Shown: positions 20,673 through 26,761 of the stretch, piece after piece
Numbering within the stretch: the stretch's first letter is position 1
Layout of the letters: each line of letters opens with the position of its first letter
Source: a virus
Direction: 5' to 3' (one strand)
Length of the DNA: 38,703 nucleotides
Virus record (IMG/VR): IMGVR_UViG_3300025818_000055
Coordinates: 1-38,703 of that record
Position numbers and translations under genes: made by a program
Notes under the pieces: generated by a model
The model's database searches: none
What the model saw: the letters and a program-made list of their open reading frames with translations, nothing else
What the model was told of the DNA's origin: nothing

Positions 20673-21546
20673 ATTTCAGATCATCACCGCCGACCAGCGC
20701 GCGGCGGAACAGTCGGGGATCAAGGGCGTCATCTTCGGTCCAAGCGGCATCGGTAAGACTTCGCTGGTGTGGACGCTAGACGCAGGGAAGACGCTTTTCT
20801 TCGACCTCGAAGCCGGCGCGCTAGCCATCGAGGGCTGGAACGGTGACACGATCCGACCCAGGACTTGGCAAGAATGCCGAGACTTCGCCTGCTTCATCGG
20901 CGGTCCCAACCCGGCGCTGCCGGCGGAAGCCGCATACAGCCAAGCGCACTTCGATGCGGTCTGTCAGGAGTTTGGCGACCCGGCGCAGCTCGACAAATAC
21001 GATACCGTATTTATCGACAGCATTACGGTCGCCGGCAGGCTTTCCTTCGCTTGGTCGAAACAACAGCCGCAAGCGTTCTCCGACCGCACCGGGAAGCCGG
21101 ACGTTCGCGGCGCTTACGGCCTGCACGGCCAAGAGATGATTGGTTGGCTGACGCACCTTCAGCACACGCGGAAGAAAAATGTCTGGTTCGTCGGCATTCT
21201 CGACACCAAGACCGACGACTACAACCGCACGATCTACCAGCCACAGATCGAGGGCAGTAAGACCGGCCTGGAGCTTCCCGGCATTGTCGATCAGGTCATC
21301 ACCATGACCGAAATCGCGTTTTCGGAGACGCAAAAGGCCCGCGCCTTTGTCTGCCAGACCATCAACGATTGGGGCTACCCCGCGAAGGACCGCAGTGGCC
21401 GGCTCGACATGATCGAAGAGCCTCACCTCGGGAAGTTGATGGCTAAAATTCGCCAGCCGAAAACCAGAGGACCGGAGCAGCTTGTTTCCACACTCCCCGC
21501 CCCGGTCCCCACTCCCACGATCAACCAAGACACACAGGAGCAGTAA
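20662..21546 (+). CDS. Sak4-type RecA-like recombinase ATPase
   Basis: Start at ATG 20662 (a second ATG follows directly). The 294-residue protein has Walker A 'FGPSGIGKTSL' (about 25-35), an acidic strand 'LFFDLEAGALAI', Walker B 'YDTVFIDSITVAGRL', and RecA-like features 'RGAYGLHGQEMIGWL' and 'HTRKKNVWFVGILDTKTDDY'. It matches the single-domain Rad51/RecA-like Sak4 group that anneals or pairs single-stranded DNA in phage recombination. The DUF669-like gene directly after it is the typical partner, thought to be a single-strand-binding protein. The C-terminal tail is Pro/Gln-rich. Confidence 0.85.
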   Translation: MMSKFQIITADQRAAEQSGIKGVIFGPSGIGKTSLVWTLDAGKTLFFDLEAGALAIEGWNGDTIRPRTWQECRDFACFIGGPNPALPAEAAYSQAHFDAVCQEFGDPAQLDKYDTVFIDSITVAGRLSFAWSKQQPQAFSDRTGKPDVRGAYGLHGQEMIGWLTHLQHTRKKNVWFVGILDTKTDDYNRTIYQPQIEGSKTGLELPGIVDQVITMTEIAFSETQKARAFVCQTINDWGYPAKDRSGRLDMIEEPHLGKLMAKIRQPKTRGPEQLVSTLPAPVPTPTINQDTQEQ

Positions 21547-23351: not shown

Positions 23352-25256
23352 ATGGACAATGTTTTCGACTTCAATACGGCGCCACGGCTAACGCCAGCGC
23401 CGCAACGGATCGACGCGGATGAAATCACCCGCGCGCTCAAACTACGGATCAGGGATTATGTCACCCGCCTATTCCCGCGCATCGCCATAAGACGCGGCGA
23501 GGGCCGCATTGGTAGCCTCAACGGCGAACCGGGCGAAAGCCTGTCAATCACCTTGGAAGGCCCCGACGCTGGCCTCTGGATCGACCACGCCACAGGCGAA
23601 AGCGGCAACCTGATCCAGCTTTGGGAACAAGCCGAAGGCGTCGGCTTCACCGAAGCCTGCGACCAACTCGCCGCCTGGCTCGGCTGGTCCGACCGCGCAT
23701 TCCAGCCAAGCCCAAAAGCCAAGGCCCGCGCACAACAGCCGGAACGCCAGGACGAACCCCTCGGCGCCCCCTCCGGCGCCTGGAACTATCTCGACAAGGA
23801 CGGCATCATTATTGCCACCGTCTACCGCTATGAACAAAACGGCAATAAAACATATCGCCCATACGACGCCACCACCAAGCGCCACGCGCCGCCCGAAGGG
23901 CTGCGCCCGCTCTACAACATCCCTGCGCTTCTAAAAGCCGAAAAAGTCATCCTCTGCGAAGGCGAAAAAACAGCCGACGCCATCAACGCCGCCGGCTTCA
24001 CCGCCACCACAATGATGAGCGGCGCCAAAGCCCCACCCGAAAAAACCGACTTCTCACCGATCCTCGGAAAACAAATCACGCTTTGGCGCGATAACGACCA
24101 AGCCGGCGTCCAATGGCAGGAAGAACTAATCTCATATTTAAGGGGCCTAGGATGCGTTTTAAGCGCCGTAGAGCCGCCTCACGGCAAGCCGGATAGGTGG
24201 GACGCCGCAGACACCGACGCGGATGAAATCAGGGCCATACTGGGCGCCGTCACGGCCCCTAAAAGCCGCTTCCAATTCCGCAAGGCCGACGCACTCAAAA
24301 AAGCCCCGCCGCCGTCCTTCCTGCTCGACAATTTCATCATCGAAAATACCTTCGCCTGCCTTTACGGCCCATCCGGCGCCGGCAAATCCTTTGTCGCTAT
24401 CGACATCGCCCTCGCCATCGCCCACGGCAAGCCGTGGCAAGGCCACAACGTCAAACCCACCACCGTCGCATACATAGCCGGTGAAGGCGCCGGAGGCTTC
24501 GGTGCGCGCATCGCCGCATGGGACCAAAAACACAACCTCGACACCGAAACCGCGCCATTCCACTTCCTGGGCGAAGCCGTCAACCTCCTCGACGCCAAGC
24601 AAGACCTGGCCGACCTCTACGCCGCCCTGGATAGCATCAACCCCGGCTTGGTCATCATCGACACCCTCGCCCGCGCATTCGCCGGAGGCGACGAAAACAC
24701 CGCAAAAGACATGATGGCGTTTGTCGCTAACTGCGGCGCGATCCAAGCCCGCTACAATTGCACGGTCCTCGTTATCCACCATTCCGGCAAGGACGCCGAA
24801 AAAGGCGCCAGAGGTTCCAGCGCGTTCCGCGCCGCCCTCGATACCGAAATCCAAATTACCAAGATCGAGGGCATGACCAATATCACCCTCAAAACCACCA
24901 AGCAAAAAGACGCCGAGGAAGCCCCACCAATACGCCTCCGGCTCCAACAAATCGAATGCCCGGTCGGTCCCGACGGTGAGATCAAAAAGTCCTGCGTCGT
25001 TATGGAAGACGAAGGGCTGTTCGCTGGCCGGCGGCAAAAATTATCCCAAAATCAAGTCGCAATCATACAATTTTTAGAGAACATAAACGGGGCAACAATT
25101 CGCGAAATAGTAAGCGAAACAGGCGTGGCAAACACCACTGTCGAGACGAACCTCGCAAAACTACTAGAGTGGGGATTTGCCGAGCTAATTCCCCACACTC
25201 GACCGGCTGAATACCGCAGAAAACAGCCACTTGAAAACGAGAGTGGGGAAATCTAG
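23352..25256 (+). CDS. Primase-helicase (Toprim plus RecA-like ATPase)
   Basis: ATG directly after the nuclease stop. Domains of the 634-residue protein: N-terminal primase-like part (about 65-110, 'GLWIDHATGESGNLIQLW') without the zinc cysteines of CHC2 primases; Toprim with Glu203 in 'ILCEGEKTADAI' and DND at 247-249 in 'LWRDNDQAG'; RecA-like helicase (RepA/AAA_25 type) with Walker A 'GPSGAGKSF' (339-347), Walker B 'LVIIDTLAR' (Asp437) and 'VIHHSGKD'; C-terminal winged helix (about 575-625). It should open and prime the origin. The last codons lie in a cluster of short repeats (see 25166). Confidence 0.87.
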   Translation: MDNVFDFNTAPRLTPAPQRIDADEITRALKLRIRDYVTRLFPRIAIRRGEGRIGSLNGEPGESLSITLEGPDAGLWIDHATGESGNLIQLWEQAEGVGFTEACDQLAAWLGWSDRAFQPSPKAKARAQQPERQDEPLGAPSGAWNYLDKDGIIIATVYRYEQNGNKTYRPYDATTKRHAPPEGLRPLYNIPALLKAEKVILCEGEKTADAINAAGFTATTMMSGAKAPPEKTDFSPILGKQITLWRDNDQAGVQWQEELISYLRGLGCVLSAVEPPHGKPDRWDAADTDADEIRAILGAVTAPKSRFQFRKADALKKAPPPSFLLDNFIIENTFACLYGPSGAGKSFVAIDIALAIAHGKPWQGHNVKPTTVAYIAGEGAGGFGARIAAWDQKHNLDTETAPFHFLGEAVNLLDAKQDLADLYAALDSINPGLVIIDTLARAFAGGDENTAKDMMAFVANCGAIQARYNCTVLVIHHSGKDAEKGARGSSAFRAALDTEIQITKIEGMTNITLKTTKQKDAEEAPPIRLRLQQIECPVGPDGEIKKSCVVMEDEGLFAGRRQKLSQNQVAIIQFLENINGATIREIVSETGVANTTVETNLAKLLEWGFAELIPHTRPAEYRRKQPLENESGEI

Positions 25257-25320
25257 GCCAAATCCCCACACTCACGGTCCCCCAAATCCCCACTCTCACC
25301 TCTCTATAGGAGAGTGGGGA
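25166..25320. repeat. Cluster of six GAGAGTGGGGA-type elements
   Basis: Forward copies: 25166-25175 (10 bases), 25239-25249, 25310-25320. Reverse copies: 25190-25200 and 25263-25273 (tccccacactc) and 25287-25297 (tccccactctc). The last pair forms a perfect 11-base stem with a 12-base loop. The first three copies are inside the end of the primase-helicase gene. Spacing is irregular and orientations alternate. An origin of replication or a multi-site operator before the late genes are both possible. Confidence 0.7.
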
Positions 25321-25354
25321 ATGGGGACAGACGGGAAATCAGGAGCGAAAAAGT

Positions 25355-25792
25355 ATGAGCCAAATCGAATTGATTAAGCCCGACCCCGGCGAGCCTCACG
25401 CCATCGAGGAAACTGGTATTGCCGGCGTCTACCGCACCCGCCGGCTATCCGTGTTTGAACGCTGGCAAAGGGAAGGGAAGATCGAACCGCGCCACTTGAA
25501 CGCGGCCAACATCTTCAATATTGAATTCTACAACGCCTGCCTGACCGACAACTACGCCACCATGCAGTTCGGGCGCATCCCCAGTGGGTCAGTACCGGAA
25601 CGCGCAAGGCAGATTGCCGACGCCCGCAAGCGCATTGCAGAGGCGTGCCGAGCCGTGGGCCAGATCGGCGCATCATGGCTATGGGATTACGTCGGGTTGG
25701 AGAAACCCCTGAAGGCCGCGCCGGATCGCCGGGAAGCCGTTGGGACGCTACGGATAGTCCTCGACCTCCTGGCCGCGCACTATCGCTTGTGA
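25355..25792 (+). CDS. DUF6456-like putative regulator
   Basis: ATG at 25355 after the repeat cluster, with aggagcgaaaaagt upstream. The 145 residues contain a helix-rich start ('GVYRTRRLSVFERWQREGKI' and 'EPRHLNAANIFNIEFYNACL') and a C-terminal part 'LWDYVGLEKPLKAA' to 'LRIVLDLLAAHYRL'. The closing 'DxV..G..L......R.....L...LD.LA.HY.L' is like DUF6456 proteins of alphaproteobacteria and their phages. They are suspected DNA-binding regulators. The position before a winged-helix gene and the terminase favours late-gene control. Confidence 0.65.
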   Translation: MSQIELIKPDPGEPHAIEETGIAGVYRTRRLSVFERWQREGKIEPRHLNAANIFNIEFYNACLTDNYATMQFGRIPSGSVPERARQIADARKRIAEACRAVGQIGASWLWDYVGLEKPLKAAPDRREAVGTLRIVLDLLAAHYRL

Positions 25793-26166
25793 AGGTGCTT
25801 GACAAAGTGGCCGGTGATTTGGTAGAAATGAGTAATCTAGGTTTGGTGCGCCAGCGGGAAGCCGCGAGGCGCTTTTTTGTTAAGGTCAGCGTGACGCGGC
25901 CATACGTCCTGACAGACGGGGAGCGTAAAAAACGCATCCCGCCAAAGCAGGCCGCAGCGCTGTTCGCGCTCATGTGCAAACCGCTAGTTAGCGTGGCAGA
26001 CCTGTCCGAAATTTTTTGGCCAAACCCAGACGCAATGCCAGACACCTGGGTCAGCGCCGCAAAGCAGCACATTCACCATTTGCGGCGAGCTTTACTAGAG
26101 TTCGGGGTTGATGTCGAAAACGTCTATGGGCGCGGCTGGCGGTTGCCAACCTTGCCAAACAGGTGA
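25789..26166 (+). CDS. Winged-helix DNA-binding regulator
   Basis: GTG at 25789 overlaps the previous stop (GTGA); the long open frame upstream is not used. The 125 residues end in a winged helix of the OmpR/PhoB C-terminal type: 'PKQAAALFALMCKPLVSVAD', 'LSEIFWPNPDAMPDTWVSAA', 'KQHIHHLRRALLEFGVDVEN' and 'VYGRGWRL'. There is no receiver domain. Small proteins of this type often sit just before the terminase genes, so it may switch on late transcription, perhaps through the repeat cluster upstream. Confidence 0.7.
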   Translation: MKVLDKVAGDLVEMSNLGLVRQREAARRFFVKVSVTRPYVLTDGERKKRIPPKQAAALFALMCKPLVSVADLSEIFWPNPDAMPDTWVSAAKQHIHHLRRALLEFGVDVENVYGRGWRLPTLPNR

Positions 26167-26352: not shown

Positions 26353-26761
26353 CGGCGATTTAACGGGTTTCGATAATCGGGGGAAGTTTGCCCCTGGTAA
26401 CAAGCTCGGCGGGCGCCCCAAGGGCAGCCGCAACAAGCTAGGCGAGGCGTTCATAGCCGCGCTGCACGATGATTTCCAGCAACACGGCGTTGACGCCATT
26501 GCTACCGTCCGCAGGGACAAGCCCCATGAATATCTGAAGGTCTGCGCTTCGCTGCTGCCGAAAGAGTTCACCGTCAACGTCAATCCAATCGAGGAAATGA
26601 CGGACGATGAACTCCTTGAGCGTATCCGCGACATTACCGGCGAAGTCACCATACTTGACGCGCCCGCAGGCGGTGGAGTTGGCGACGATCCGGGCGGAAC
26701 TGGAACGGCGCAGGAAGCGGAACCGGCTGGCGGATTACCGGCCATACCCGAAACAGCGTGA
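26336..26761 (+). CDS. Small terminase subunit-like protein (DUF5681 type)
   Basis: GTG at 26336 has cggagggg seven bases upstream and is preferred to the TTG at 26330. The 141 residues show the motif 'FAPGNKLGGRPKGSRNKLGE', then 'DFQQHGVDAIATVRRDKPHE', 'YLKVCASLLPKEF' and 'MTDDELLERI'. The GRPKGSRN block and 'PxEYLKxxASLLPKE' are typical of DUF5681-like proteins encoded just before the large terminase, which are thought to recognise phage DNA for packaging. It overlaps the large terminase by about 90 bases. Confidence 0.75.
   Translation: METKPNGDLTGFDNRGKFAPGNKLGGRPKGSRNKLGEAFIAALHDDFQQHGVDAIATVRRDKPHEYLKVCASLLPKEFTVNVNPIEEMTDDELLERIRDITGEVTILDAPAGGGVGDDPGGTGTAQEAEPAGGLPAIPETA

Follow-up and report, generated by a model that had tools for sequence, protein, structure and literature searches.

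We identified a cluster of short repeats arranged around a hairpin that is very likely the replication origin of the phage under study. It occupies positions 25165-25320 of the window, by which we mean the whole stretch of viral DNA analysed (IMG/VR record IMGVR_UViG_3300025818_000055, 38,703 nucleotides). This assignment is inferred from computation on sequences, without replication or binding data. An initial annotation, made from the sequence alone, had preferred an origin bound by its initiator. This reading was supported and agreed with every test that we made; the replication start and the binding are inferred only.

The same annotation had reported six copies of a 10-11 base element within 155 bases, three per orientation, three of them inside the coding end of the helicase gene and one pair forming a perfect 11-base stem. 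All of these claims held. The coordinates of the six copies were confirmed (Table 1). When the region was dinucleotide-shuffled 1000 times, no shuffle had more than three copies and none equalled the observed six (0/1000). Three copies precede the stop of the gene at 23352-25256, and iterons 5 and 6 make up the stem. When 300-bp intervals were slid along the whole window, five to six copies were found only in those starting at 25000 and 25100. Within the 38.7-kb record, exact GAGWGTGGGGA was confined to the cluster, and the reversed pattern had 0 matches. An overlapping seventh copy with two mismatches (25317-25327) had not been noted previously, nor had the CTCTCTATAG centre and the GC-skew minimum described below. 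An Rfam search of the window returned no match. Two near-copies of the element, GGGAGTGTGGA and GGGAGTGGGGA, lie on the minus strand at 21487-21516, near the 3' end of a Sak4-like gene, and may be due to chance.

Table 1. Positions in the window of the initiator gene, the iterons and the central element.
Feature	Positions	Strand	Description
Primase-helicase	23352..25256	+	634 aa; TOPRIM primase, RSF1010-RepA/T7-gp4-type hexameric helicase, C-terminal winged helix
Winged-helix domain	25020..25253	+	putative origin-binding domain; recognition helix at about residues 594-606 (TVETNLAKLLEWG)
Iteron 1	25165..25175	+	TAGAGTGGGGA, 10 of 11 match; within helicase coding end
Iteron 2	25190..25200	-	GAGTGTGGGGA; within helicase coding end
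Iteron 3	25239..25249	+	GAGAGTGGGGA, exact; within helicase coding end
Iteron 4	25263..25273	-	GAGTGTGGGGA
Iteron 5	25287..25297	-	GAGAGTGGGGA, exact; left arm of central palindrome
Iteron 6	25310..25320	+	GAGAGTGGGGA, exact; right arm of central palindrome
Central element	25300..25314		CTCTC-TATAG-GAGAG; family-wide core CTATAGG at 25304-25310

The architecture of the site is shown by computation. The perfect 11-bp stem of iterons 5 and 6 encloses a 12-nt loop, with the CTCTCTATAG centre at 25300-25309, and when folded as single-stranded DNA this stem-loop has an energy of -11.8 kcal/mol (z -3.7).

The gene that carries half of the iterons encodes a protein matching Pfam AAA_25 (1e-41), together with a sub-threshold Toprim_3 match and a weak MarR_2 match. 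Searched against the PDB, the family profile matched RSF1010 RepA (1g8y, 1e-14) and the primase half of T7 gp4 (5e-9). Structure models were built from window and contig proteins only. The AlphaFold2 model of the full helicase (pLDDT 83) resembled Twinkle, T7 gp4 and RepA in Foldseek, with RepA at rank 8-11. The winged helix that the initial annotation had placed at the C-terminus also held, as a prediction of good confidence: modelled alone with AlphaFold2, the last 78 residues fold as a winged helix (H-H-H-E-E, pLDDT 83.6) similar to MarR/ArsR/AspA-type winged helices (TM about 0.7). No dedicated iteron-plasmid Rep domain (Rep_3 and similar) was matched by Pfam in proteins P0001-P0005. Directly upstream lie a Sak4-like annealing protein and a Cas4-type exonuclease, which with the helicase constitute a replication-recombination module. 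Downstream, the product of 25355-25792 has a weak DUF6456 match, and a small gene overlapping it by a few bases (25789-26166) has the look of a winged-helix regulator, with no Pfam or PHROG match. As a separate observation, in four relatives (L128, L113, L126 and L109) the iterons in the coding end encode low-complexity tails, enriched in T, G, Q, D and R, that extend past the winged helix.

We then compared about 140 loci with homologous helicases, drawn from IMG/VR, GTDB genomes, phages and plasmids. Relatives were searched for by helicase peptide, so the collection was blind to the repeats. Because searching directly with the window protein alone yielded no close relative, the relatives used are distant, mostly 23-40% identical to the window helicase. 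Clusters were measured as copies of some 10-mer between -150 and +250 of the helicase 3' end. At least four copies were present at 58.5% of 135 helicase ends compared with 2.7% of 564 other long-ORF ends on the same contigs, and at least five copies at 33% compared with 0.5%; by this measure, about 40% of relatives had fewer than four detectable copies. With the loci dereplicated at 70% identity, no other site within 5 kb equalled the cluster at the helicase end in about 41 of the 79 lineages, and one cluster per locus was the rule. The letters of the repeats are specific to each lineage (CATCCGAAA, TCGTCCGG, AACCTTAC, GTGTGATTG, CGTGGTCAA, TTGCGGAAGC, AACTACACAC and others), and the genes downstream are unrelated between relatives, the 116 downstream ORFs falling into 41 similarity groups. 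These data tie the cluster to the helicase rather than to the genes downstream. No cluster or centre was found behind the genes for the distant AAA_25 proteins of KingVeVeVe, Trine, SS3e, Vibrio 1218 and Pseudomonas 5371. The initial annotation had held that non-conservation of the element in relatives would refute it; the letters are indeed not conserved, but position, arrangement and central hairpin are.

This hairpin is the second element that recurs in the relatives, as a palindrome centred on CCTWTAGG with a C-rich left arm, a TWTA-type loop and a G-rich right arm. It emerged from unbiased k-mer counts, in which CCTATAGG occurred at the helicase ends of 17 of 79 lineages and at 0 of 329 control ends (p=1.7e-13), and CCTTTAGG at 11 of 79 compared with 1 of 329. 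The centre commonly lies 30-100 bp past the helicase stop, and the iterons nearest to it are in opposite orientation at 34 of 36 scorable loci (34:2). Covariation in the stem is shown by compensatory changes across the family: inner stem pair 2 is paired in 30 of 35 cases (17.3 in shuffles) and pair 3 in 26 of 35 (12.1 in shuffles). Murrayvirus coliphages likewise have covarying stems, CCCCCCC/GGGGGGG, CTCTC/GAGAG or CCCTGT/ACAGGG, around a TTATA-type loop; sortregn, sortsyn and IME_EC2 belong to this group. With other repeat letters and the shared central hairpin, the same layout recurs in many related viruses, prophages and plasmids, laboratory phages of E. coli among them.

A hairpin specific for the fused TOPRIM primase was considered, and this idea was weakened by two findings. 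Hairpins are equally frequent with short homologs of less than 510 aa (22/34), which lack room for a fused primase, and with long ones (62/101), and one is also present alongside a PriCT_2-type primase (L141). Both findings speak for strand opening or helicase loading as the hairpin's task, more than for a task linked to the TOPRIM primase; any such role of the hairpin, in strand opening or in priming, is inferred.

The association was also tested in reverse, by scanning 2.9 million viral contigs for the DNA pattern CACNCCTWTAGGNGTGTCC alone. Among the 63 contigs that matched, 49 encode a recognisable helicase homolog; in all 49 the pattern lies within -300 to +500 of the helicase stop, typically at +82 to +88, and in 47 the orientation is the same. 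The remaining 14 comprise seven in which the helicase may have been cut off, since the pattern is close to the contig end, and seven with the centre beside other ORFs. The pattern CCCCTWTAGGGG with TCACA gave a similar picture (17 contigs, 13 with helicase, 13/13 at +63 to +73), whereas a composition-matched scrambled core matched three contigs, none with helicase. A scan of IMG/VR with another pattern, CCGGTTNCCTWTAGGNAACCGG, found no match. As a side observation, seven loci (L195, L207, L208, L209, L225, L232 and L253) carry a CACCCCTWTAGGGGTG centre and GGACA-type or similar repeats without a recognised family helicase alongside; these may be origins that function in trans or serve a different initiator.

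Were the iterons bound by the winged helix of the helicase itself, covariation between iterons and recognition helix would be expected. With similarity of the ATPase core controlled for, iteron similarity did correlate with similarity of the recognition helix (r=0.12, partial Mantel p=0.0017) and more weakly with that of the whole tail (r=0.08, p=0.013); for distant pairs only, the whole-tail correlation was not significant. Saturation of most pairs keeps the helix-iteron correlation small, although it is significant. We derived class rules by eye at loci whose clusters were strong and then tried them on held-out loci. Class B, which joins [KR][KR]KAF to GGGACA or CGGACA, gave 42 observed against 3.5 expected on held-out loci and spanned distant cores. 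Class C, [ST]xGKR with TGTGAT, gave 68 observed against 7.8 expected, in a set that is not independent because its loci are close mutual relatives; part of the whole locus set is phylogenetically clustered as well. Class A, xRxR[FV] with TCCGG or TCCGA, was weak on held-out loci (15 against 8.1 expected). Two proteins with a core similarity of only 0.30 share both KD[KR]SN[LF] and CGTGGT. The covariation itself is shown. Since the letters of the iterons follow the recognition helix, the C-terminal winged helix is the likely binder, an inference from covariation without binding data.

Several features of the site are origin-like. The cumulative GC-skew minimum of the window falls at the cluster (25,582), and a larger local skew change is found at only 1.5% of positions; the main genes on either side of the minimum run in the same direction. 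GC skew had been proposed as a check in the initial annotation, and support from relatives was modest: in 17 records the same statistic had a mean rank of 0.31 (expected 0.5), with several minima kilobases away. We regard skew as supporting evidence and not as proof of an origin. In one relative (L059), the predicted origin just after the helicase stop combines four exact TTATCCACA DnaA boxes with GGACA iterons and the central hairpin, and these boxes independently suit the origin reading. One exact TTATCCACA box is present in another (L032); elsewhere in the family DnaA boxes are uncommon, and the window has none.

In the mechanism that we propose, the initiator acts at an origin that overlaps the end of its own gene and continues immediately downstream, and the iterons would be bound by the C-terminal winged helix of the primase-helicase. 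The two opposed iterons around the CTATAG-centred palindrome would bring about head-to-head placement of two helicase assemblies, and opening or extrusion of the central hairpin would give single-stranded DNA. A RepA-type ring may then load on the exposed strand, where the primase would start. Origin function, iteron binding and head-to-head loading are all inferred. Counting against the mechanism are the modest skew support in relatives, the small helix-iteron correlation, the rarity of DnaA boxes, the relatives with fewer than four detectable copies and the seven contigs whose centre has no recognised helicase beside it.

Other explanations for the cluster were weighed. The initial annotation had offered operators for late regulators as an alternative, controlling the genes just downstream (25355, 25789) or the late operon. 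In its favour, two small genes follow the repeats, one of them resembling a winged-helix protein, and inverted operators are common. However, the cluster is kept in relatives whose downstream genes are unrelated, the 25355 protein had no match among 143 relatives, many of them bearing repeats, and the repeat letters track the recognition helix of the helicase; moreover, no sigma-70-like promoter was found at the site and half of the copies lie inside the upstream gene. We therefore consider operators unlikely, and this alternative was not supported. Also unlikely in our judgement is a regulatory, partition or copy-number site for the helicase winged helix, comparable to P4 crr, with the true origin elsewhere. 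P4 alpha binds ori plus a second site, and all the binding evidence, which comes from covariation, fits this explanation just as well. Against it stand the single cluster per locus, the GC-skew minimum and the DnaA boxes of L059 at the site, and a central hairpin that resembles a strand-opening or priming element.

A packaging (pac) site is suggested by the nearby Terminase_6N gene, which starts at 26607, about 1.3 kb downstream, but the element stays with the helicase as downstream genes change and is also found on plasmids, which makes this explanation very unlikely. Just as remote is a transcription terminator, for which a strong hairpin just past a gene could speak, or a fortuitous repeat: the hairpin has no T-run and no terminator-like match, and both the shuffles and the recurrence in unrelated lineages contradict chance. 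An origin recognised by the adjacent helicase remains our preferred reading.

This arrangement has parallels in known replicons. In SaPI Rep/ori and SCCmec Cch2, the helicase gene is followed directly by iterons that the C-terminal domain of its product recognises (Ubeda 2007, cited in PMC7581432), and two hexamers have been proposed (PMC7581432). The window helicase similarly has a C-terminal winged-helix domain and iterons at the gene end. In contrast, the SaPI and SCCmec helicases are of DUF927 or D5/Primase_Cterm types; no SF3, D5 or DUF927 helicase domain was found in the window protein, which instead has the AAA_25/RepA RecA fold and is related to RepA and T7 gp4. Also unlike those systems, some of its iterons fall within the end of the coding sequence, and the opposed iterons are separated by a conserved CTWTAG palindrome. 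P4 alpha likewise joins a TOPRIM-type primase, a helicase and an origin-binding winged helix in one protein and binds origin repeats (Ziegelin and Lanka 1995; Yeo 2002, cited in PMC4234260). The P4 helicase is of SF3 type, unlike that of the window, and P4 is not known to have a 3'-adjacent hairpin origin of this kind. By sequence, no solved helicase is closer than the hexameric RepA of RSF1010, but in that replicon RepA, RepB and RepC are distinct polypeptides and recognition falls to RepC (PMC4234260), whereas the window has primase (RepB in RSF1010), helicase and winged helix in one ORF. The multifunctional orf904 of pRN1 has a C-terminal winged helix and an essential stem-loop downstream of the gene (PMC4234260); it differs in primase type and in its SF3 helicase, and its origin lacks iterons. 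Repeats and a stem-loop have also been reported for Bordetella phage BIP-1 (PMC4234260). The layout resembles those of SaPI Rep and P4 alpha, and what appears new is the T7-gp4/RSF1010-RepA-type helicase and the combination of iterons with a conserved hairpin. We found no description of an iteron and hairpin origin with a RepA/T7-gp4-type helicase in the open-licence literature; subscription literature was outside the scope, and the novelty is thus provisional.

We lean, by a narrow margin, towards a bolder reading: that the site represents a widespread and previously undescribed class of origins of phages, prophages and plasmids. In this class, lineage-specific iterons would stand head to head around the recurrent CCTWTAGG hairpin and be read by the winged-helix tail of a RepA/T7-gp4-type helicase, iterons and recognition helices codiversifying under a partly readable code while the hairpin stays fixed. 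If true, a primase-helicase like T7 gp4 and Twinkle would act as its own origin-recognition protein. Phages may then diversify origin specificity by coevolution of helix and iteron with a constant strand-opening element, and this could underlie the compatibility of co-resident elements. Most phages have no mapped origin, and the signature predicts one for many uncultured phages, prophages and satellite-like plasmids. It also does so for named coliphages with E. coli MG1655 as a host, where the prediction is open to direct testing.

Two individual loci deserve mention. On a 17-kb Klebsiella plasmid (L191, CP018459.1), which has the appearance of a phage satellite, a capsid gene accompanies a RepA-type helicase whose gene end bears eight TGCGGC-type iterons. 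Coliphage KMB41 (L259, OR539216.1, 1-739) has its helicase gene labelled as a cobalt-zinc-cadmium resistance protein (CusA/CzcA), an apparent misannotation.
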